From positions 1 to 40,535 of the forward strand of contig VBFY01000026.1 of NCBI GenBank assembly GCA_005889405.1: a stretch of 40,535 nt of DNA, written 5' to 3'. The DNA comes from Chloroflexota bacterium. Its GTDB lineage: Bacteria; Chloroflexota; Limnocylindria; P2-11E. Below, piece by piece: positions 28,934 through 39,908 of this stretch. Below the pieces are notes generated by a model. That model did no database searches and was not told where the DNA came from. It worked only from the letters and a program-made list of their open reading frames with translations. Positions within the stretch are counted from its first letter, which is position 1; each line of letters opens with the position of its first letter. The translations under genes were made by a program, and so were the position numbers.

Positions 28934-29777
28934 CCCGACCGTCGGCGTACTCCTCTCGCGCGTTCGCGTGGAGGAAAAGATGCTTCTGGAGGAGCTCGAG
29001 TCGCGGCACGTTCCGACCAAGGTGCTCGATGACCGCGAGATCGTCTTCGAGCTCGAGCGGAAGCCGGACATCGGCGTCGACGTCGTGCTCGAGCGCTGCA
29101 TCCAGCACAGCCGCGCGCTGTACTCGCTCTGGGTGTTCGGCATCTGGGGCATCCCCACCGTGAACACCTTCGAGGTCGCGGACATCTGTGGCAACAAGCT
29201 ACTCACGACGATGCGCCTCATCCGCGATGGGGTGCCGTCGCCGCGGACCCGCGTCGCGTTCACCCCGGAGTCCGCTCTCGTCGCTGCGGAGGAGCTGGGT
29301 TACCCCGTGGTGATGAAACCGCTCGTCGGAAGCTGGGGCCGTCTCATCTCGAAGGTGAACGACCGCGAGGCGGCGGAGGCGATCCTCGAGCACAAGGATG
29401 TGCTCGGGACGTATATGCACTCCATCTATTACGTCCAGGAGTACGTGCCGAAACCGGGACGCGACATCCGCGCGTTCGTCGTCGGCGATGAGACGATCGC
29501 CGCGATCTACCGTTATTCCGACCACTGGATCACCAACACCGCCCGCGGCGGCAAGGCGACGAAGTGCGTCGTCACGCCGGAGCTCAACGAGGTGTGCGTG
29601 CGGGCGGCCCGAGCGGTCGGCGGCGGCGTCGTCGCGATCGACGTGCTCGAGGGAGCCGAGGGTCTGCTCGTGAACGAGGTCAACTACACCATGGAATTCC
29701 GAAATTCCATCGAAACGACCGGCGTGAACATCGCGGCGAAGGTCATCGACTACGTGCTGTCCGTGGCTCCGAGGTGA
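28926..29777 (+). CDS. lysX: LysW ligase LysX (alpha-aminoadipate or glutamate)
   Basis: 283 residues from GTG 28926. It is an ATP-grasp ligase (RimK-like), which joins the substrate amino acid to the C-terminal Glu of LysW. Visible are [20 protein letters not shown], the ATP-binding [16 protein letters not shown], the NTARGGKA segment, and the metal site [18 protein letters not shown]. From sequence alone I cannot decide between LysX and ArgX specificity. It overlaps lysY by 4 bp (GTGA). Confidence 0.94.
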
Positions 29778-30808
29778 GGGCGGGCATCGTCGGCGCCGGT
29801 GGCTATGCCGGCGGCGAGCTGCTGCGTCTGCTGCTTGGCCATCCCGAGGTCGACGCGATCGTCGCCGGCAGCGAGTCGCTCGCGGGCAAGCCGGTGACGA
29901 CGGCACATCCGAACCTCCGCAAGCGAACGGATCTGCAGTTCGTCAGATACGAGGATGTGACCCGGTGCGACGTGCTCTTTCTCAGCTTGCCGAACGGCAC
30001 GCACCGCGCCGATGAATTCGACGGCCGAGCCGAGCTGATCATCGATCTGTCGAGCGACCATCGACTCACGGACCCGGCCGACTACCAGCGGTGGTACGGC
30101 GAGCCGCATCCGCATCCTCACGCGCTCGGCCGCTGGGTCTACGGCATTCCGGAGCTACACCGCGCCCGCATCGCCGGCGCGAAGCGGGTGACCGGCGCCG
30201 GTTGCAACGCCACCGCTGCGATCCTCGCGCTGCTGCCGCTCTTCGCAGCGGACGTCGTCGACCGCACGCGTCCGGTCGTCGTCGAATGCAAGGTGGGCTC
30301 CAGCGAGGGTGGGCGCGAGCCGTCTGAGGACTCTCACCATCCGGAGCGCGTTGGCGTGGTGCGCTCCTTCCGGCCGGTCGGGCACCGCCACACCGCGGAG
30401 ATCGAGCAGGAGCTCGCGCTCGGCGGCGCGCGGCCGCGCGTCGATCTCTCGGTCACCGCGGTCGAGCTCGTGCGCGGCGTCCTCGCGACCGCCCACGCCT
30501 ACGTGAAGAGTCCCCTCGAGGACAAGGACCTTTGGAAGATCTACCGGGAGCGGTACGCGAGCGAGCCGTTCGTGCGCATCGTGAAGGAGCGGGCCGGGAT
30601 CTTCCGTTACCCCGAGCCGAAGCTGCTCGCAGGCACGAACTTCGCGGACGTCGGATTCGCGGTCGATCCGCGCGGCGAGCGAGTCGTCGCGCTCTGCGCG
30701 ATCGACAACCTGGTGAAGGGCGCAGCGGGCAACGGCGTGCAGGCGATGAACGTCGCGCGCGGCGTGGCGGAGGACGCCGGGCTCGGCTTCGTGGGACTGC
30801 ATCCATGA
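29774..30808 (+). CDS. lysY: LysW-aminoadipyl/glutamyl phosphate reductase LysY (ArgC-like)
   Basis: 344 residues from GTG 29774, which overlaps the lysX stop; the open frame starts earlier but that part lies inside lysX. NADPH-binding motif [18 protein letters not shown] begins the protein. The catalytic cysteine is C144 in [11 protein letters not shown]. It reduces the phosphorylated carrier-bound substrate to the semialdehyde. The [13 protein letters not shown] segment is typical of the LysY/ArgC group. It overlaps lysZ by 4 bp (ATGA). Confidence 0.95.
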
Positions 30809-31584
30809 CCCTGCGCGCCGTCGTGAAGGCCGGTGGCTCGAAGGGCGTGGACCGTGACGCGGTCGCGACCCTCGTGGCCGAGGTCGCGCGTCTCGACGAG
30901 ATCGTCCTGGTGCACGGGGCGTCGGCGGAGACCGACCGCCTCGCGGCCGCACTCGATGTGCCGCAGGAGACGATCACCTCGCCATCGGGCCACACCAGTC
31001 GCCGCACCGATCGGCGCACGCTCGAGGTGTTCGCGATGGCCGCCCTCGGCGTGGAGAACTTCCTCTACGTCGAGAAGCTCCAGCAGCGCGGCATCGATGC
31101 GGTCGGCCTCTCGGGTATCTCGGGCCGCCTGCTCATCGCGAAGCGCAAAGACGTGCGCTCGGTGAAGGACGGCAAGACCCTGCTGCTGCGCGACGACTAC
31201 ACCGGCACCGTGGAGGCGGTGAACCTGCCGCTGCTCACGCAGTTCATCGGACCCGGTCGCGTGCCCGTCGTCGCTCCTCTCGCGCTGTCGACGGAGAACG
31301 AAGCCGTCAACGTCGACGGCGATCGTGTCGCGGCGCGGATCGCGGTCGCGATCGACGCCGACGCGCTGCTCATACTCACGAACGTGCCCGGTCTGCTAAG
31401 TGATCCGAACGATCCGTCGTCGCTCGTCGCCGAGACGACGCTCGATGAGGCTGAGAAGCTGGCGCAGGGTCGCATGAAGAAAAAGATCCTCGCGGCGCGC
31501 GAGGCCATCGAGGGCGGCGTGGGCGAGGTCGTCATCCGCAGCGCGTCGGGCGATCCTCAGATCCGCACGGTGATCCAGGGATGA
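30805..31584 (+). CDS. lysZ: LysW-aminoadipate/glutamate kinase LysZ (ArgB-like)
   Basis: 259 residues from ATG 30805. It is an amino-acid kinase that phosphorylates the side-chain carboxylate of carrier-bound substrate, using ATP. Seen are VVKAGGSKGVDRD (phosphate loop, with Ala-Gly-Gly where others have Gly-Gly-Ser), VLVHGASAETDRLA, the central NVDGDRVAARIAVAIDADAL, and the C-terminal GRMKKKILAAREAIEGGVGE. It acts before LysY although it is encoded after it. Its stop overlaps lysJ by 4 bp (ATGA). Confidence 0.94.
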   Translation: MTLRAVVKAGGSKGVDRDAVATLVAEVARLDEIVLVHGASAETDRLAAALDVPQETITSPSGHTSRRTDRRTLEVFAMAALGVENFLYVEKLQQRGIDAVGLSGISGRLLIAKRKDVRSVKDGKTLLLRDDYTGTVEAVNLPLLTQFIGPGRVPVVAPLALSTENEAVNVDGDRVAARIAVAIDADALLILTNVPGLLSDPNDPSSLVAETTLDEAEKLAQGRMKKKILAAREAIEGGVGEVVIRSASGDPQIRTVIQG

Positions 31585-32750
31585 CGGTGGAGCGGCGCTC
31601 GTCCGTCGGACGCGAGGACGCGCACACCTCGGGCCTCTATACCAAACGTCAGCTCTCGATCGTGCGCGGCGACGGAGCGCTCCTCTACGACGAAGATGGC
31701 CGCGAGTACATCGACTGCGTCGGCGGCCAGGGCTCGGCGAATCTCGGGCACGGTAACGTGGCGGTGGCGGATGCGATCGCTTCGCAGGCGCGGACGCTCG
31801 CCTCGTGCACGGAGCTCTTCTACAACGACCGCCGCGCGGAGCTGTACGACGTCCTCGCCTCGCTGCTGCCGGCGTCGCTCGATCGGATGTTCCTCTGCAA
31901 CAGCGGCACCGAGGCCGTGGAGGGCGCGCTCAAGTTCGCGCGCGCCGCGACGAAGCGAAGCGGCGTGGTCGCGACGATGCGCGGTTTTCACGGCAAGACG
32001 ATGGGCGCGCTGTCCGCGACCTGGGGTCCCGAATACCGCGACGTCTTCGGGCCGCTCGTGCCGGGCTTCTCGCACGTTCCGTTCAACAGGCCCGAGGCGC
32101 TCGGCGCGGCGATCACCACCGATACCGCCGCCTTCATCGTCGAGCTCGTGCAGGGCGAGGGAGGCGTGCGACCTGCGACGCGCGAGTTCATCGCGGAGGC
32201 TGCGCGCGTCTGCCGCGAGCGTGGCGCGCTGCTCGTCTTCGACGAGGTGCAGACCGGCTTCTGCCGGACGGGGACGATGTTCGCCCTCGAGCAGTACGAC
32301 GTCGTCCCGGACATCCTCTGCCTCGCCAAATCGATCGCCGGCGGACTGCCGATGGGCGCGATCGCGTTCTCGCGCGCGTTGGGAGATCTCCCGAAGCGCT
32401 CGCATTCGTCGACGTTCGGCGGGAATCCGCTCGCGTGTGCCGCGGCCATCGCCGCGATCGGTGAGATGCGCCGCCTCGACCTCGCCACACGCGCGCGCGA
32501 GCGCGGCGCGCAGCTGCTGGATGGGCTGCGTGGCATTCACAGCGACCGGGTGCGCGAGGTCCGCGGGCTCGGCCTGCTCGCCGGTGTCGAGCTGAAGGAG
32601 AACGCCGGCCCGACGCTCCGGGCGCTGCAGGATCAGGGAATCCTCGCGCTTGGCGCGGGCCCGACGGTGGTGCGCTACCTGCCGCCGCTCGTCATCAGCG
32701 CTTCGCAGATCGACCGCGTGCTCGTCGCGACCGCCAAGGTGCTCGCATAG
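31581..32750 (+). CDS. lysJ: LysW-lysine/ornithine semialdehyde aminotransferase LysJ (ArgD-like)
   Basis: 389 residues from ATG 31581. It is a class III PLP aminotransferase that converts the carrier-bound semialdehyde to the amine, using glutamate. [16 protein letters not shown] forms part of the phosphate site, [13 protein letters not shown] holds the PLP-contacting Asp, and K250 in [16 protein letters not shown] forms the Schiff base. The N-terminal [15 protein letters not shown] matches LysJ rather than GabT. It is distinct from the other class III aminotransferase at 12990. Confidence 0.95.
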
Positions 32751-33811
32751 AGCCCGACATCGAGCTGGTCCGCGGGCTCGTCGCGATCCCGAGCACCAGC
32801 CGTCGCGAGGGCGAAGCGGTCGAGTGGCTCGTCGCGCGGATGGCCGAGCGCGGCTTTCGCGCATCCGTCGACGACGCAGGCAATGCGGTCGGCGAGATCG
32901 GCGAGGGGTCCATGCACGTCGTGCTCCTCGGCCACATCGATACGGTCCCCGGCGAGATCGCAGTGCGCGTCGAGGAGGGCGAGCTCGTCGGACGCGGTGC
33001 GGTCGACGCGAAGGGACCACTCGCCGCCTTCGTCGCCGCCGCGACGAACCGCGTCGCTGACGTGCGCGTCACGGTCGTCGGTGCGGTCGAGGAGGAATCG
33101 CCGACCAGCGCGGGCGCGCGTTACCGCGCGACGCTCGCTGCGCCGGACTGGTGCGTCATCGGCGAGCCATCCGGTTGGGACGCGGTCACGGTCGCGTACA
33201 AGGGGCGTCTCGCGCTGCGCGTCGCGCTGTCGCGTCCGGCACGTCACGGCGCCGCGCCCGGCCTCACGTGCACTGAAGAGGCGCTCGCGCTGTGGTCGCG
33301 CCTGCGTGCGTCCGCCGAGAAACGCACGAAGGAGGCTGAGGGGTTCGCGAAGCTCGACTGTCGTCTCGAGGGCATGAGCGGCGGAACGAGTGACGGACTC
33401 GTCGAACGAGCTGAGCTCCGTGTCGGCTACCGCATCCCGCCTGGCATCACGACCGCCGAGCTCGACGCAGATCTTCGTGCCATCGCGGCGGCGCACGATG
33501 GCGCTGCGACGATCGAGATCGAGCGCACCGGGGCCGAAGAGCCCGCGCGCACCTCGCGCACCACACCACTTGCGCGCGCGTTCGTCGGCGCGATCGCGGA
33601 TGCGGGAGGCAAAGCGACGTTCAAGGTGAAAAGCGGCACGAGCGACATGAACATCCTCGCGCCCGCATGGGGCTGTCCGATGGTCGCGTATGGTCCCGGC
33701 GACTCCCGGTACGATCACACGCCGATGGAACGTCTCGCACTCGCCGATTACGCGCGAGCGATACGTGTGCTGCAAACCGTGCTCGCACGTGCCCGCAACC
33801 CCATAATCTGA
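32747..33811 (+). CDS. lysK: LysW-lysine/ornithine hydrolase LysK, probable ATA start
   Basis: Family M20 metallopeptidase that releases lysine (or ornithine) from LysW. The frame has no ATG, GTG or TTG in a suitable place: the first ATG, 32840, would remove the N-terminal segment [20 protein letters not shown] that LysK proteins share. The frame upstream of that segment reaches an ATA at 32747 whose last bases form the lysJ stop (ATAG), in the same overlap geometry as the other junctions. From ATA the protein has 354 residues, the normal family length. Metal ligands are H in [11 protein letters not shown] in [14 protein letters not shown] in GAVEEESPT and the C-terminal H in [10 protein letters not shown]. 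The start codon is inference; the gene identity is solid. Confidence 0.9.
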
Positions 33812-33838: not shown

Positions 33839-35830
33839 GTGGCGGGAAGTTTGTTTTCGAAGCGCCAACGGCGTCAGCGCGCGGTCGTCGCCGCCCTTGC
33901 GGTGCTCGCGGTGCTGTTCGGCGCACTCGCACTGGTGACCCAGCTCTTCGACACCACACTGCAGACCGCGATCTACGACAAGGCCATCGATATCTCGCCC
34001 GCTCAAGTGAAGAACCAGATCACGATCGTCGCCGTCGACGACCTCACCATCACCAAGTACGACGTATATCCGTTGCCACGTCGCGCGTACGCGGATCTCA
34101 TCCGCGCGCTCCGGGCGCAGAACCCGACCGTCATCGCGCTGGATGTGAGCTTCTACGACCGCTCGCCGAGCCCCGAGGACGACGCGCTGCTCGCGTCGGC
34201 GATCAAGGACGCGGGCAACGTCATCCTCGCGATGCAGGGAGCGGGCGACGGCATGCTGACGGACCACTCGACGAAGTTCGGAGTCGTGCAGCTTCCGATC
34301 GCGCAGCTGAGCTCGGTCGCGGCGGGCCTCGGCTCGGTGAACGTCACCGCCGATCCCGATGGACACGTGCGTGACGCGCAGATGCGCATCGAAGGCCCGG
34401 ACGGGACGACGTACTACGCGCTGCCGCTCCTCGCCGCGGCACGACAGGTCCGTGCGGATGTCACGAAGGCGACCTTCACCGGCGACCGCCTCGTCATTCC
34501 CGCGCCGCTCGGGGAACGCGTGCTGCCGCTCAACGAGCGCGGCGGCATGGCCGTGTACTACGCGTCGCGGCCGGCCACGTCGACGACCGAGCAACAGAAG
34601 CTCGGCTTCTGCACCAACCCGCTCGAGTTCTGCGTCGTCTCGATGAAGGACGTCATCGCCGGCGCGGTGCCGCGTGAGCTCATCCTCGGCCGGACGGTGT
34701 TCGTCGGCTTCCATTCCGTCTCCGCGGTGCCTGACGACTATCCGGTGCCGAACAGCGTCGGGCGGAAGATGTTCGGCGTGGAGATCTGGGCGAACACCGC
34801 GCAGTCGATATTCACCAACCGCTACCCCGTGCTGAAGCAGGACTTCGTCACGACGCTGCTGCAGCTGCTGCTCGTGACGCTCGGCGGCATGCTCCTCGTC
34901 GTGCGCTGGCGGCTCTGGGGCTTTCTCGGTGCGCTCGGCGTTCTCGCCGCGTACATCGCCGGCGCTTACGTCCTGTTCTCGCTGCAGACACAGGGCGAGG
35001 TCGGGAACGGACCGGTGGAGGTGCCGTCGATCGGCTACGTCCTACCGTCCGCGTTCTGGTGGGTGATCGGGCTCGGCTACCTCCTGTTCGAGGAGCAGCT
35101 CGCGGTGTCACGGACGCAGAACACGTTCGGCCGCTTCGTCACGCCGGCGGTCGCGCGCACGATCATGGACCGAGAGGAGACTGGCCAGCTTGCCCTGGGC
35201 GGCGAGGACCGGCGCGTGACGGTGCTCTTCGGCGACATCCGCGGGTTCACGACGATCTCGGAGGGCATGACGCCGGCGATCCTGCTTGGGCACCTCAATC
35301 GCTATTTCGACGGTATGGTGACCATCGTGAACCGCTATGAAGGCAGCGTGAACAAGTACAACGGTGACAACATCATGGTCATCTGGGGTGCGCCGATCGA
35401 AGTCGCCGACGAGGCGCGCAAGGCCGTGGAATGCGCGTTGGAGATGCAGAAGTGGATCCAGGCCGAGCGCGCAAAGGGCGGGCCTGATGTGTCATTCGGC
35501 TTCGGCATCAACACCGGTCACGTCGTCGCCGGCTTCCTCGGCGCGCTGGGGCGGATGGAGTACACCGTGATCGGTGACACCGCCAACGTCGCCTCGCGTC
35601 TCACGTCGGCCGACATCGCGCGTCGCGACCAGGTCGCATGCAGCGCCGAGACGCTCAGCGAGCTGGGGAGCGACGTCGATTACGTCGATCTCGGCGCCAT
35701 CCAGGTGAAGGGCCGCGCGGAGCCGGTCGCGTGCTACCAGATCAACCGCATCGGCGCGCTCGCGAACCCGAACGCAGCGCCGGCGCCGCAGATCAGGGTC
35801 GCGAGCGCCGCCGTGGCCGGGTCCCATTGA
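33839..35830 (+). CDS. CHASE2-domain class III adenylate/guanylate cyclase
   Basis: 663 residues from GTG 33839. One N-terminal helix (VVAALAVLAVLFGALALVTQ) precedes an extracytoplasmic CHASE2 sensor (~35-330; TIVAVDDLTITKYDVYPLPR, VIALDVSFYDR). Three transmembrane helices (~340-425) lead to a class III cyclase domain (~455-625). Catalytic residues are present: metal Asp D466 (FGDIRGFT) and D510 (NGDNIMVIWG), the purine-contacting K506 (NKYNGD), the Thr in EYTVIGDTAN, and the Arg in NVASRL. The Lys/Thr pair favours ATP, thus cAMP as product. It begins a run of four genes with 4-bp overlaps, 27 bp behind lysK (a ccgcgg-centred inverted repeat lies between). Confidence 0.94.
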   Translation: MAGSLFSKRQRRQRAVVAALAVLAVLFGALALVTQLFDTTLQTAIYDKAIDISPAQVKNQITIVAVDDLTITKYDVYPLPRRAYADLIRALRAQNPTVIALDVSFYDRSPSPEDDALLASAIKDAGNVILAMQGAGDGMLTDHSTKFGVVQLPIAQLSSVAAGLGSVNVTADPDGHVRDAQMRIEGPDGTTYYALPLLAAARQVRADVTKATFTGDRLVIPAPLGERVLPLNERGGMAVYYASRPATSTTEQQKLGFCTNPLEFCVVSMKDVIAGAVPRELILGRTVFVGFHSVSAVPDDYPVPNSVGRKMFGVEIWANTAQSIFTNRYPVLKQDFVTTLLQLLLVTLGGMLLVVRWRLWGFLGALGVLAAYIAGAYVLFSLQTQGEVGNGPVEVPSIGYVLPSAFWWVIGLGYLLFEEQLAVSRTQNTFGRFVTPAVARTIMDREETGQLALGGEDRRVTVLFGDIRGFTTISEGMTPAILLGHLNRYFDGMVTIVNRYEGSVNKYNGDNIMVIWGAPIEVADEARKAVECALEMQKWIQAERAKGGPDVSFGFGINTGHVVAGFLGALGRMEYTVIGDTANVASRLTSADIARRDQVACSAETLSELGSDVDYVDLGAIQVKGRAEPVACYQINRIGALANPNAAPAPQIRVASAAVAGSH

Positions 35831-36327
35831 TCGACATGCTCGACGACAAGGTCGCGCTCATCCTGGTGAAGCTCGGTCACCTGTCGGTGCAGCGTGACCG
35901 CGAGGCGTATCTCCGCGGCCTCGTGGAGCTGTGCTCGCAGGCGGTCGACGCCGAACGCTGCACCTTCTACGTCGTTGACCAAGAGAAGAATGAGCTCTGG
36001 GCCCGAGTGGCTCAACGCACCACGACCGAGATCCGCCTGCCGATCGGCCAGGGCCTCGCGGGTCAGTCCGCCCTTACCGGCGAGACGATCAACGTTCCGG
36101 ATGCGTACGCGGACTCGCGCTTCGACCGCAAGTTCGACATGCGCACGGGGTTCCGCACGCTCAACGTGCTGGTCGTCCCGGTGTGGGGGAGCCAGGGAAA
36201 GCCGGTCGCCGTGATCCAAGTCCTCAACAAGCGCAACGGCACGTTCGAACGCCGCGATCAGATGCTTCTCGAGCAGATCGCGGAGACCATCGCGCCGGTC
36301 GCGGAGCACATCACGTCGGCGGAGTGA
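35827..36327 (+). CDS. Single GAF-domain protein
   Basis: 166 residues from TTG 35827, which overlaps the cyclase stop (TTGA), or 163 from ATG 35836. A short helix (MLDDKVALILVKLGHLSVQ) precedes one GAF domain: DAERCTFYVVDQEKNELWAR, RLPIGQGLAGQSALTGETIN, NVLVVPVW. Near the end is NKRNGTFERRDQ, which matches NKXnFX3DE of cyclic-nucleotide-binding GAF domains except that the last Glu is Gln. It has no output domain, so it may act as a sensor subunit for its neighbours. Its stop overlaps the HD-GYP gene (GTGA). Confidence 0.85.
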   Translation: MIDMLDDKVALILVKLGHLSVQRDREAYLRGLVELCSQAVDAERCTFYVVDQEKNELWARVAQRTTTEIRLPIGQGLAGQSALTGETINVPDAYADSRFDRKFDMRTGFRTLNVLVVPVWGSQGKPVAVIQVLNKRNGTFERRDQMLLEQIAETIAPVAEHITSAE

Positions 36328-37619
36328 GCGGCAGGCCGGCCGACCGCCGGAGCACGGAGCGACGCACCGCGGCCGGAGCGCCACCGGACGCCGCCGATCG
36401 GCGCGCCGCCGAGCGACGCAGCCGCGAGCGGAGGACGGCCGGCCATCGGCTCGAGGTGATCCTCGACGTGACGCGTCGGCTCATGTCGGTGACCGATCTG
36501 GATTCGCTGTTGCACCTGATGGCCGAAGCGACGCAGGAGCTGCTTGCGGCCGACCGGGCGACGATCTTCATCGTCGACGCCGACCGCGGCGAGCTGTGGT
36601 CGCGCGTCGCGCTGGGCACCGGCGAGATCCGCATTCCGCTCGGGACCGGGATCGCGGGCAGCGTCGCGCAGACCGGAGACGTCATCAACATCCCGGACGC
36701 CTACGCCGACGCGCGCTTCAATCCGGAGCCTGACCAGCTAAGTGGCTACCAGACGAAGAGTCTCCTCACTTATCCGATGACCGGACAGGAGGGCCGCGTC
36801 ATCGGCGTGTTCCAGGCCGTCAACAAGCACGGCAGTGGTCCGTTCACCACCGCCGACGAGGAGACGCTCGCGTCGCTCGCAGCCTCGGCCGCCGTCGCCG
36901 TCGAGAACGCGCAGCTCGTGGCCGAGCAGAAGCAGTTGTGGCAGACGCTGATCGAGACGCTCGCGATGACGGTCGACGCACGCGACCAGCAGACCGCGGG
37001 GCACAGCCAGCGCGTCACGCGCTACGCCGACGTGATCGGACGCGCGATGGGCCTGCGCGGCAAGGATCTCGAGAAGCTTCGCGCCGCCGCGCTGCTGCAC
37101 GACTACGGCAAGATCGCCGTGCGCGACAAGTTCCTGCAGAAGCCGGGGAAGCTCGACGACGCCGAGTTCGAGTACATGAAGGCGCACGCCGAGAAGACCG
37201 GCGAGTTCCTTGCGCATCTGGTGTTCCCGCGTGACATGCGCGACGTGCCGGTGATCGCCTCGCAGCACCATGAGCGCATGGATGGCAAGGGCTATCCGAA
37301 AGGACTTGCGGCGGACGCGATCGTGCTCGGCGCGCGCATCGTGGCGGCGGCGGATGTGTTCGACGCGCTGACGGCGCCGCGCTACTACAAGCCGGCGTAT
37401 CCGCTTGACAAGACGCTGGAGTTGATGGACGAGATGACCGGTGACCACCTCGACCCGAAGGTCATGGCCGCCGTGCACGCCGCGAAGCCGCATCTCGAGG
37501 CCGCGCTCGCGGCGCTGAAACACACCTGGCCGAAGCCGGGTGACGAGGGCATGGGGACCATCCAGGAGGCGGCCGGTCTCTCGGAGCGCGATCGAGCGGC
37601 AGCGAAGGGGTCGTCGTGA
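36324..37619 (+). CDS. GAF-HD-GYP c-di-GMP phosphodiesterase with NKFDE motif
   Basis: 431 residues from GTG 36324. After a basic, disordered start (~40 residues), the GAF domain (~45-195) contains NK at 167-168, F at 174 and DE at 178-179, a complete NKXnFX3DE signature. The HD-GYP domain (~210-400) has HD in LLHDYGKIAV (H259-D260), HHERMDGKGYP from H315, and the helix VAAADVFDALTAPRYYKPAY. These are the features of active HD-GYP enzymes that degrade c-di-GMP to pGpG or GMP. It is encoded between a GAF protein and a metallo-hydrolase, co-translated with a class III cyclase. I infer control by cyclic mononucleotide. A disordered tail ends the protein. Confidence 0.93.
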   Translation: MSGRPADRRSTERRTAAGAPPDAADRRAAERRSRERRTAGHRLEVILDVTRRLMSVTDLDSLLHLMAEATQELLAADRATIFIVDADRGELWSRVALGTGEIRIPLGTGIAGSVAQTGDVINIPDAYADARFNPEPDQLSGYQTKSLLTYPMTGQEGRVIGVFQAVNKHGSGPFTTADEETLASLAASAAVAVENAQLVAEQKQLWQTLIETLAMTVDARDQQTAGHSQRVTRYADVIGRAMGLRGKDLEKLRAAALLHDYGKIAVRDKFLQKPGKLDDAEFEYMKAHAEKTGEFLAHLVFPRDMRDVPVIASQHHERMDGKGYPKGLAADAIVLGARIVAAADVFDALTAPRYYKPAYPLDKTLELMDEMTGDHLDPKVMAAVHAAKPHLEAALAALKHTWPKPGDEGMGTIQEAAGLSERDRAAAKGSS

Positions 37620-38446
37620 AGGTCCGTTTCTGGGGTACGCGCGGTTCGATCCCGACGCCCGGCCCGAGAACGGTGCGCTACGGTGGCAACACCGCGTGCG
37701 TCGAGGTGCGCGACTCGACCGGCGCTCTGCTGGTCCTCGACGCCGGGACCGGTCTGCGCGAGCTCGGCATCGCGATGATGAACGGCGGCGGCAGGCGTCC
37801 GTTCGACGTCGACCTGCTGATCTCGCACCTCCACTGGGACCACATCCAGGGCATCCCGTTCTTTCGTCCCGCGTACGACCCGAAGAGCCGCCTGCGGATC
37901 ATCGGACCGAAACAGTCGCGCACGATGAAGGAACTGCTCGGCATGGGCATGGACGACCCCTTCTTCCCCGTCGATATCGACGACCTGCCCGTCCAGCTGA
38001 GCATCGAGGAGATGACCGACGGATCCGACGAGCGCGTCGGGCCGTTCCGCGTCCACTCGTCGACCCTCTTCCATCCCTCGCCGGCGCTCGCGTATCGCGT
38101 CGAGGCCGACGGGCGCTCGCTCGTGTACGCAACGGACACCGAGGATGCGTTCTCGGGCAAGCCGAATCCCGTGATCCCGCTATCGGCCGACGCGAACACG
38201 CTGATCCACGACGCGCAATTCCTGCCCAGCGACTTCAAGGCGACGTGGGGTCACTCGACCGTCGATGCGGCGATCGACGTCGCGGTGAAGGCGCGTGTCG
38301 GCCGGCTCGTGCTCTACCACCACGACCCCGACCGCAGCGACGACGCGCTCGATCGTATCGGGAGGGACGCGCAGCGAACGGCGAGCGAGCGTCGGCCGGG
38401 TCTCGAGGTCGTCGTCGCGCGTGAGGGACTCGAGCTCGAGATCTAG
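37616..38446 (+). CDS. Metallo-beta-lactamase-fold hydrolase
   Basis: 276 residues from GTG 37616, overlapping the HD-GYP stop. The metal-binding motif HxHxDH is present as SHLHWDHIQG; further ligands are the His in STLFHPSPALAYRV, the Asp in VYATDTEDAF and the His in LYHHDPDRSDD. The start VRFWGTRGSIPTPGPRTVRY and the GGNTACVEVR that follows are typical of a subgroup annotated as phosphoribosyl-1,2-cyclic phosphodiesterase or PdeA-like. The place behind a nucleotide cyclase suggests a role in cleaving a cyclic nucleotide, but the substrate is not shown by sequence. It ends the operon. Confidence 0.88.
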   Translation: MKVRFWGTRGSIPTPGPRTVRYGGNTACVEVRDSTGALLVLDAGTGLRELGIAMMNGGGRRPFDVDLLISHLHWDHIQGIPFFRPAYDPKSRLRIIGPKQSRTMKELLGMGMDDPFFPVDIDDLPVQLSIEEMTDGSDERVGPFRVHSSTLFHPSPALAYRVEADGRSLVYATDTEDAFSGKPNPVIPLSADANTLIHDAQFLPSDFKATWGHSTVDAAIDVAVKARVGRLVLYHHDPDRSDDALDRIGRDAQRTASERRPGLEVVVAREGLELEI

Positions 38447-38486: not shown

Positions 38487-38816
38487 ATGAATGCGCTCGA
38501 AACGATCAATCAGGCGCGCGACGCGCTCACCGTGAAACGGGTGTATGGCGAGCCCTACCAGCAGGACGGCGTCACGGTAATCCCGGCCGCGGTGGTGATG
38601 GGTGGCGGCGGTGCCGGCGGTGACATTGAGGGCAACGGCGGGGGCGGCTTCGGCCTCTCGGCCCGGCCCGCCGGCGCGTGGGTCATCAAGGATGGCGACG
38701 CGACGTGGCGCCCCGCGATCGATGTGAACCGCGCCATCCTGATGGGCCAGCTCGTCGCGATCGTGATGTTCCTGTCGGTGCGGTCGATATTCAAGGCGTG
38801 GGCGAGGCGACGCTAG
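38487..38816 (+). CDS. GerW/YtfJ-like protein with C-terminal membrane segment
   Basis: 109 residues from ATG 38487, with aggggag at 38473-38479. The N-terminal helix (MNALETINQARDALTVKRVY) leads to VTVIPAAVVMGGGGAGGDIE and a further Gly-rich stretch and AGAWVIKDGDATW, the pattern of the YtfJ (GerW) family. It ends in one transmembrane segment (AILMGQLVAIVMFLSV). YtfJ in Bacillus is a spore protein; family members are also widespread in non-sporulating bacteria, where the role is unknown. A -10-like tatcgt is at 38450-38455. Its last 26 bp overlap the convergent REC-GGDEF gene. Confidence 0.8.
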   Translation: MNALETINQARDALTVKRVYGEPYQQDGVTVIPAAVVMGGGGAGGDIEGNGGGGFGLSARPAGAWVIKDGDATWRPAIDVNRAILMGQLVAIVMFLSVRSIFKAWARRR

Positions 38817-39747
38817 TCGCGCTCTCGCGGCGGCGGTCGAGCGCGTAGCCCGAGCCGGATCGGCGCTTCGCGACCTCCTTCATCTCTGCCGCGGCGCGCG
38901 CGACCTCGGTCGCGCTGGTGAAACGATCCGGACGGAGTGGCACGACGCCGATCGACACGGTGACGAATGGGATGCGTCGTGTGCGCCCCCGACGATCCGG
39001 CGCCTCGACCCAACCGCGCGCGCGGTCCTCCGCGTCGTAGAGCGCGGGGATCGTCGCGTCGAAGCGCGCGATGATCTCGCGCGCCAGTCGCTCGGCGCGA
39101 TCGCCAGGCACGAGGACGACGAAGTCGTCGCCGCCGACGTGACCGATGAACGTGTCTTCGCTCGTCTCGCCGACGACTTCACTCAGCAGCTCGGCGACGT
39201 GCCCGATGAGGCGGTCGCCGCGAGTGAACCCGTGCCGGTCGTTGAAGTCCTTGAAGTGATCGACGTCGACGTACAGGCATGCGGCCTCACTGCTGTCGGC
39301 GAGCCGCGCGTCGATCTCGTGCGCGATGCTGAGATTCCCCGGAAGGCCCGAGAGCGGATTCAGCGAGCGGAGCTCGGCCGCGCGCCGCAGCGCGGATGCG
39401 ATGCGAGCCACGAGCTCGTCGACGTCGAACGGCTTCGAGACGAAGTCGTCGGCGCCGTTGCGGAAGCGCGCGGTCGTCTCGGCGGTCGTGCGTTTCGCCG
39501 TGATGAAGACCACCGGGATGTAGCGCGTGCGCCGATCGCGGCGTAGCTCACGGTGCACGTCATCGCCGGACAGGAACGGCATACCGACATCGAGGACGAC
39601 CAGGTCGGGACGTGTGGCGCGCGCCTGCTCGAGCGCCGCTTTGCCGTCGGCCGCCAGGACGCAGTCGTAACCCGCCTCCTGGAGTGCCAGATCGATCAGG
39701 GCTCGGGTCGGAGCGTCGTCGTCCGCGACCAAGACGCGGCTCGGCAT
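38791..39747 (-). CDS. REC-GGDEF response regulator with GGDDF variant
   Basis: 318 residues from ATG 39747; a GTG at 39783 is in frame but precedes the receiver by an unneeded stretch. The receiver domain (1-120) has VADDDAPTR, phospho-acceptor Asp in DLVVLDVGMP, Thr in VVFITAKRT and KPFDVDEL. It is followed by a GGDEF-type domain with LNPLSGLPGNLSI, YVDVDHFKDFNDRHG and GHVGGDDFVVLVPG. The active-site loop reads GGDDF instead of GG(D/E)EF, and the I-site position has TSED, lacking the Arg. It may be a weak cyclase without product inhibition, or a c-di-GMP or GTP-binding regulator. No kinase gene is adjacent. Confidence 0.9.
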   Translation of the reverse strand: MPSRVLVADDDAPTRALIDLALQEAGYDCVLAADGKAALEQARATRPDLVVLDVGMPFLSGDDVHRELRRDRRTRYIPVVFITAKRTTAETTARFRNGADDFVSKPFDVDELVARIASALRRAAELRSLNPLSGLPGNLSIAHEIDARLADSSEAACLYVDVDHFKDFNDRHGFTRGDRLIGHVAELLSEVVGETSEDTFIGHVGGDDFVVLVPGDRAERLAREIIARFDATIPALYDAEDRARGWVEAPDRRGRTRRIPFVTVSIGVVPLRPDRFTSATEVARAAAEMKEVAKRRSGSGYALDRRRESATSVASPTP

Positions 39748-39754
39748 TTGTTCA

Positions 39755-39760
39755 GGATTA
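39755..39760 (-). promoter_or_regulatory. Probable -10 element of the REC-GGDEF gene
   Basis: On the minus strand taatcc ends 7 nt before ATG 39747, with no Shine-Dalgarno between (tgaacaa). This fits a leaderless transcript. Confidence 0.4.
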
Positions 39761-39908
39761 GCGACCCTGGATGGCTTTAACACTGAGAAAACGGTACCGC
39801 CAGGCCACCGCTGGTCCTGTTGCGAGGCGAGGGAACGAGCGAGGGGCGGCGTCCTGTTTACCGGCTGTTGACCCTCGAGTGGCTGCTGGTCGTAGCTAAC
39901 TCGGTCGG

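Follow-up and report, generated by a model that had tools for sequence, protein, structure and literature searches.

The operon described here is a set of four genes occupying positions 33839-38446 (about 4.6 kb) of a stretch of 40,535 nucleotides from a soil Chloroflexota bacterium (contig VBFY01000026.1 of assembly GCA_005889405.1, the whole of which is referred to below as the window), and it is most likely a cyclic AMP (cAMP)-controlled cyclic di-GMP (c-di-GMP) phosphodiesterase unit with a probable cAMP-removing metallo-beta-lactamase (MBL)-fold hydrolase. Its products are a class III cyclase with a CHASE2 domain, a small protein with a single GAF domain (the lone GAF protein), a GAF-HD-GYP protein and the MBL protein. 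In the mechanism proposed, a membrane adenylate cyclase with an outward-facing CHASE2 sensor would make cAMP, which would bind the GAF domain of a presumably dimeric GAF-HD-GYP enzyme and change, by precedent raise, its hydrolysis of c-di-GMP; the lone GAF protein would bind the same ligand and serve as a partner or buffer, and the MBL protein would hydrolyse the cyclic nucleotide and so reset the system. The probability of the whole mechanism, a relay from cAMP to c-di-GMP with its own off-switch, is put at about 0.55, with higher confidence in the cyclase and in the ligand class of the GAF domains and lower confidence in what the MBL protein hydrolyses and in what the lone GAF protein does. 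Judged from alignments, the active sites are intact, the GAF pockets are of the cyclic-nucleotide type and the gene set is conserved.

The two enzymes at the ends of the proposed relay both retain the residues expected of them. In class III cyclases two aspartates bind metal, a lysine and an aspartate specify ATP and an asparagine/arginine pair completes the site; in the operon protein (Pfam CHASE2 2e-37, Guanylate_cyc 8e-26) these are D466 and D510, K506 and D580, and N583 and R587, all of them invariant among 19 aligned sequences, which supports its assignment as an adenylate cyclase making cAMP from ATP. For the GAF-HD-GYP protein (Pfam GAF 6e-22, HD_5 1e-38) roles were assigned by comparison with PmGH, the GAF-HD-GYP protein of Persephonella marina (PDB 4mcw), which is its top sequence and fold match across GAF domain, linker helix and HD-GYP domain. 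Residues H227, H259, D260, H288, H315, H316, D344, K263, D221, GYP, R353 and K356 are invariant in its orthologues, and they include the H259-D260 pair, the motif H315-H-E-R-M-D-G-K-G-Y-P325, D221/K263 (PmGH D183/K225) and R353/K356 (PmGH R314/K317). The comparison supports an HD-GYP enzyme that is intact apart from one metal ligand, considered below.

Both GAF domains resemble those that bind cyclic nucleotides. The first-pass annotation of this DNA had ascribed the NKXnFX3DE signature to the GAF-HD-GYP protein (NK 167-168, F174, DE 178-179), and N, K, F and D prove invariant and E nearly so in an orthologue alignment that leaves out one locus whose range crossed a stop codon; it had also read the signature in the lone GAF protein with Q for E, leaving four of the five residues, and this too is as it had stated. 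That the signature is a trivial trait of all GAF domains was rejected, since NKXnFX3D[E/Q] was seen in only two of the 43 GAF domains of the same genome, both of them in this operon, the full NKXnFX3DE being confined to the GAF-HD-GYP protein. Another pocket motif, D-x-x-[TS]-G-[YF]-x-T, is found among the same 43 domains in the two operon proteins and in one GAF histidine kinase. This kinase (L155, 1643-2872; own-genome C68) has a similar pocket (ERAT, DARSGFRT) with NDN in place of NK, and on its sequence it is a candidate for a third GAF domain of cyclic-nucleotide type in the genome. In searches of the PDB the GAF-HD-GYP protein matched PmGH best (1e-72) and then CyaB2 (5e-46), whilst the best match of the lone GAF protein (Pfam GAF 8e-17) was the CyaB2 tandem GAF (4.5e-39); PDE2, PDE5 and PDE10 matched both domains at about 1e-16 to 1e-28, and generic GAF domains at just ~1e-4 to 1e-7. 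The residues of CyaB2 GAFb that contact cAMP are R291, T293, I308, D356 and N359 (PMC4411481), and these correspond in the alignment to R, T, V, D and S in the GAF-HD-GYP protein and to R, T, V, D and T in the lone GAF protein, so that every listed position is identical or conservatively replaced. An AlphaFold model of the GAF-HD-GYP protein had a mean pLDDT of 74, with values of 86-94 over most of the GAF region, and a Foldseek search with it returned PmGH, PDE5, CyaB2, PDE10 and Lcd1 with cAMP. Sequence and fold together thus support placing both domains in the cAMP/cGMP-binding GAF class typified by CyaB2, PDE2/5/10 and Lcd1.

The first-pass annotation made its proposal depend on conservation of the gene order in relatives, and the order is kept across one bacterial order, from which all 22 loci with a GAF-HD-GYP orthologue (own locus included) come. 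The orthologues are 66-94% identical and occur in the organism's own genus and family, plus one genome (G028) of a second family in the order. The lone GAF and MBL genes are present at 22/22 loci (some cut by a contig end) and the cyclase gene at 20/22, one contig stopping short of it and one genome, G006, having none at the site, which makes cyclase adjacency 20/21 where it is visible. The idea that this synteny is the mere carry-over of a long conserved block was rejected in part, since in G028 the upstream flank is entirely different, with ATP-binding cassette transporter genes instead of lysine/arginine genes, and the four genes are still together. The gene set is held to be beyond chance because it is kept across the order, survives the changed flank in G028 and accounts for both motif-bearing GAF domains among the 43. 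The lone GAF orthologue was limited to this order in a survey of 177 genomes of the class; about six family members show no orthologue, most of these being incomplete assemblies.

The MBL protein (Pfam Lactamase_B_2) keeps all its metal motifs, with S70-H-L-H-W-D-H76, H153, D174, H213 and H235/H236 all invariant. Its profile and fold matches (AlphaFold model of mean pLDDT 85; Foldseek) are RNase Z, BA1088 and YhfI, followed by PhnP, yeast PDE1 and the phage protein Apyc1, and YhfI gave the top target-normalised TM-score, 0.80, among the matches listed. The alignment to RNase Z skips residues 155-201 of 1y44, which have no counterpart in the MBL protein and which we take to be the tRNA-binding exosite arm of RNase Z. 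It is unlikely that the MBL protein is the RNase Z of the cell, the exosite arm being missing and two other loci scoring somewhat better on the RNase Z model, although none passes its cut-off. Atypical class-II phosphodiesterases (Rv1339, YhfI and CpdA) combine PF12706 with the motif [T/S]HXHXDH (PMC9293780), and the MBL protein has both, S70HLHWDH76 fitting the motif; this motif is not exclusive to these phosphodiesterases, because RNase Z satisfies it too. A second MBL protein of the same family is encoded elsewhere in the genome (L159, 1860-3302; own-genome C78), where it is fused to a response-regulator receiver domain; a GAF histidine kinase and a receiver-ATPase protein are encoded nearby.

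When the genome collection was scanned with the MBL alignment, 80 loci were retrieved, and in about half of those outside Chloroflexota a GAF gene lies immediately downstream of the MBL relative, the downstream proteins sampled being GAF-sigma-54 activators in Myxococcota, in one Deltaproteobacteria metagenome-assembled genome (MAG) and in one Planctomycetota MAG. A receptor signature (R, T/S, D, T, G, Y/F, T/S, N, K/R, F, D) was scored and was found in 29 of the 32 GAF domains adjoining MBL relatives outside Chloroflexota; among the 30 best-scoring GAF domains of Sorangium, 3 had the pocket part of the signature and 2 had all of it. The three exceptions are GAF-HD-GYP proteins, two from Deltaproteobacteria MAGs and one from a Limnochordia MAG in which a CHASE2 cyclase is the next gene to the MBL and GAF-HD-GYP pair. 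One of two Sorangium MBL proteins has no GAF neighbour, and none was seen beside the Acidimicrobiia relatives in the scan. Because many of the lineages are related within Myxococcota, best matches were sampled and some members have no GAF neighbour, the pairing is descriptive and carries no corrected statistic. The pairing makes it plausible that MBL and GAF proteins share one ligand. At L071 (8001-10378) and similar Myxococcota loci the MBL gene is followed by a GAF-sigma-54 activator bearing the receptor signature, an arrangement that suggests transcription under cyclic-nucleotide control. Tentatively, a dedicated MBL phosphodiesterase beside a cyclic-nucleotide GAF receptor may form a cross-phylum pair with a swappable output: a sigma-54 activator in Myxococcota, HD-GYP in Chloroflexota, and HD-GYP again in Limnochordia and Deltaproteobacteria, where the GAF motif has diverged. 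To this pair Chloroflexota would have added the CHASE2 cyclase and a detached GAF domain as one half of a split tandem. The earlier suggestion that the hydrolase removes the signal is strengthened by the phosphodiesterase motif, the missing RNase Z arm and the GAF pairing elsewhere, which make such a role a stronger, though still putative, one.

A number of observations weigh against the proposed relay. Class III cyclase domains are matched 14 times in the genome and cyclic nucleotide-binding (CNB) domains 15 times, and therefore cAMP signalling reaches beyond the operon, a private circuit is not required and the pool may be shared; moreover G006 (L156; assembly ~82% complete) has the lone GAF, GAF-HD-GYP and MBL genes right behind the lysine gene, with no cyclase between. 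Both facts suit the view that the GAF domains read a cell-wide cAMP pool of which the adjacent cyclase is one source among many, the unit being cAMP-responsive and not a private circuit. This is considered rather unlikely in view of the near-constant adjacency of the cyclase in the order and its recurrence in the Limnochordia MAG. The signalling chain first put forward accordingly stands, on sequence, conservation and fold, as far as cAMP synthesis, cAMP-type GAF domains and an HD-GYP enzyme in one conserved unit are concerned, and does not stand as a necessarily closed circuit. The MBL protein attracts the most serious, if still doubtful, of the alternatives, namely that it is an RNase Z/PhnP-like hydrolase of another substrate, co-transcribed for other reasons, in which case the link between cAMP and c-di-GMP would stand without it. 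RNase Z is its top sequence match, at 70.6 bits on a model with a curated cut-off of 292.95; the NCBIfam model for cyclic-nucleotide phosphodiesterases, NF041851, gives 60.3 bits against a curated cut-off of 400, so that membership of that family is not claimed; and some homologues have no GAF neighbours, among them a 65% identical MBL protein in another Chloroflexi MAG, which has neither a GAF nor an HD-GYP neighbour within the available sequence. Set against this are the absent exosite arm, the pairing with cyclic-nucleotide-type GAF domains across phyla and the leading TM-score of YhfI, a protein placed by PMC9293780 in one group with Rv1339 and CpdA, which degrade cAMP.

Another possibility is that the GAF domains serve as dimerisation modules, with a ligand other than cAMP (cGMP or some unrelated small molecule) or with no ligand at all, the cyclase being incidental. 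Some GAF domains of the NKFDE type do not bind, and the NKFDE residues, which make no direct contact with the ligand, act by stabilising the domain; alanine mutation of each of them in PDE2 GAFb abolished cGMP binding (PMC11977230). With Q145 in place of E in all 22 lone GAF sequences, and given the behaviour of the PDE2 mutants, ligand binding by the lone GAF protein stays only putative. The alternative is nonetheless improbable, because the cAMP-contact positions of CyaB2 are all conserved and the only GAF domains of this kind in the genome adjoin a cyclase with ATP-specifying residues. As regards the HD-GYP enzyme, AlphaFold confidence is low in parts of the domain and the PmGH metal ligand E185 is replaced by an invariant Q223, so that the metal centre differs from that of PmGH and is without this ligand of the trinuclear centre, which marks one subgroup only. 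An E185A mutant of PmGH retained some activity, and an active binuclear enzyme is hence the simplest reading; on its residues the protein more likely falls in the binuclear subgroup. The replacement of E185, together with a strong match to an HD-GYP protein specific for 3'3'-cyclic GMP-AMP (5z7c, 2e-43), could also mean that this or another cyclic dinucleotide is hydrolysed instead of c-di-GMP, but this is improbable, given that PmGH, the nearest relative over the full length, is a c-di-GMP phosphodiesterase and that 14 GGDEF domain matches (beside 8 HD_5 matches) occur in the genome, one of them in a convergent gene next door. The cAMP-controlled c-di-GMP unit remains the preferred reading.

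The features of the operon are collected in Table 1. Four open reading frames on the + strand with the junctions TTGA, GTGA and GTGA had been described, and the sequence bears these out. The 4-bp overlaps hold for the two GTGA junctions; the first needs a TTG start and is doubtful, a gap of ~5 bp being possible instead, because most lone GAF orthologues begin at the residue matching the ATG 9 bp after the TTG (M-L-D-[DE]-K). Most junctions in relatives measure -4, -1 or +2 to +7 bp and a few are longer gaps, and at locus L035 ~1 kb separates the cyclase from the lone GAF gene.

Table 1. Genes and signature motifs of the operon, in window coordinates
Feature	Positions	Strand	Remarks
CHASE2 class III adenylate cyclase (predicted)	33839..35830	+	663 aa; CHASE2 33917-34882, cyclase domain 35213-35746
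Lone GAF protein	35827..36327	+	166 aa counted from TTG 35827; likely start ATG 35836
GAF-HD-GYP phosphodiesterase (predicted)	36324..37619	+	431 aa; GAF 36495-36902, HD-GYP 36957-37463
MBL-fold hydrolase	37616..38446	+	276 aa; candidate atypical class-II cyclic-nucleotide phosphodiesterase
NKXnFX3DQ motif, lone GAF protein	36226..36261	+	N134 K135 F140 D144 Q145, read directly
NKXnFX3DE motif, GAF-HD-GYP protein	36822..36860	+	N167 K168 F174 D178 E179, read directly and by alignment
SHLHWDH metal-binding motif, MBL protein	37823..37843	+	fits [T/S]HXHXDH; invariant

Directly upstream (window 29564-33811) are LysW-type lysine/arginine biosynthesis genes (N-acetyl-gamma-glutamyl-phosphate reductase-like, LysZ-, LysJ- and LysK-like), a neighbourhood that is kept within the family and absent in G028. 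As the cyclase starts only 27 bp past the stop of a [LysW]-lysine-hydrolase-like gene, the transcript may start further upstream and the operon could extend into this cluster. Downstream of the MBL gene is a small glycine-rich protein of 109 aa (window 38487-38816), kept in most close relatives and without a match in Pfam or NCBIfam. It is followed by a convergent gene (window 38791-39783, - strand) for a REC-GGDEF protein with GGDDF replacing GG[DE]EF, which adjoins the operon in many relatives and is possibly a c-di-GMP synthase working against the HD-GYP enzyme.

Several known systems resemble parts of the operon. Tlr0485 of Thermosynechococcus is a cAMP-activated GAF-HD-GYP c-di-GMP phosphodiesterase, as cited in PMC8846402; by that description its domain layout is shared, as is the way in which cAMP is proposed to act on c-di-GMP hydrolysis, and the account, as far as it is available, does not describe a four-gene operon with a cyclase and an MBL protein. 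PmGH differs in having the trinuclear-iron ligand E185, and the available part of its literature names no ligand for its GAF domain. The GAF-GGDEF protein Lcd1 of Leptospira (PDB 5w10) is activated by cAMP and likewise links it to c-di-GMP through a cyclic-nucleotide-type GAF domain, but its output is synthesis and not breakdown. Bd1971 of Bdellovibrio is also a c-di-GMP phosphodiesterase stimulated by cAMP, but its receptor is of the CNB type and its enzyme of the EAL type (PMC6717892). The tandem GAF of Anabaena CyaB2 (PDB 1YKD), whose cAMP pocket residues are matched, is the nearest solved structure for the lone GAF protein and the second nearest, behind PmGH, for the GAF-HD-GYP protein, but in CyaB2 the GAF domains are inside the cyclase itself, whereas in the operon they are on separate proteins beside it. 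The atypical class-II phosphodiesterases share PF12706, the motif, the lack of the RNase Z arm and, in YhfI, the fold, although the MBL protein is not a close ortholog of them. With Tlr0485 and Lcd1 published, the principle of coupling cAMP to c-di-GMP is already known, and the mechanism first proposed for the operon is, by comparison with these proteins, a sound analogy and no new principle. Full-text literature searches, with most subscription papers outside their coverage, found no description of the exact four-gene layout, in keeping with the earlier statement that none was known, and none of a link from cAMP to c-di-GMP in Chloroflexota. The closed four-gene circuit and the pairing of MBL protein with receptor thus appear to be new.

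If the proposed mechanism is true, cAMP synthesis, sensing, response and removal would be brought together within the four adjacent genes and would end in the control of c-di-GMP, providing a compact model of messenger cross-talk in Chloroflexota. It would also single out a group of MBL proteins, whose present annotation goes no further than hydrolase, as candidates for partnership with GAF receptors of cyclic nucleotides, the sigma-54 activators of Myxococcota among them.

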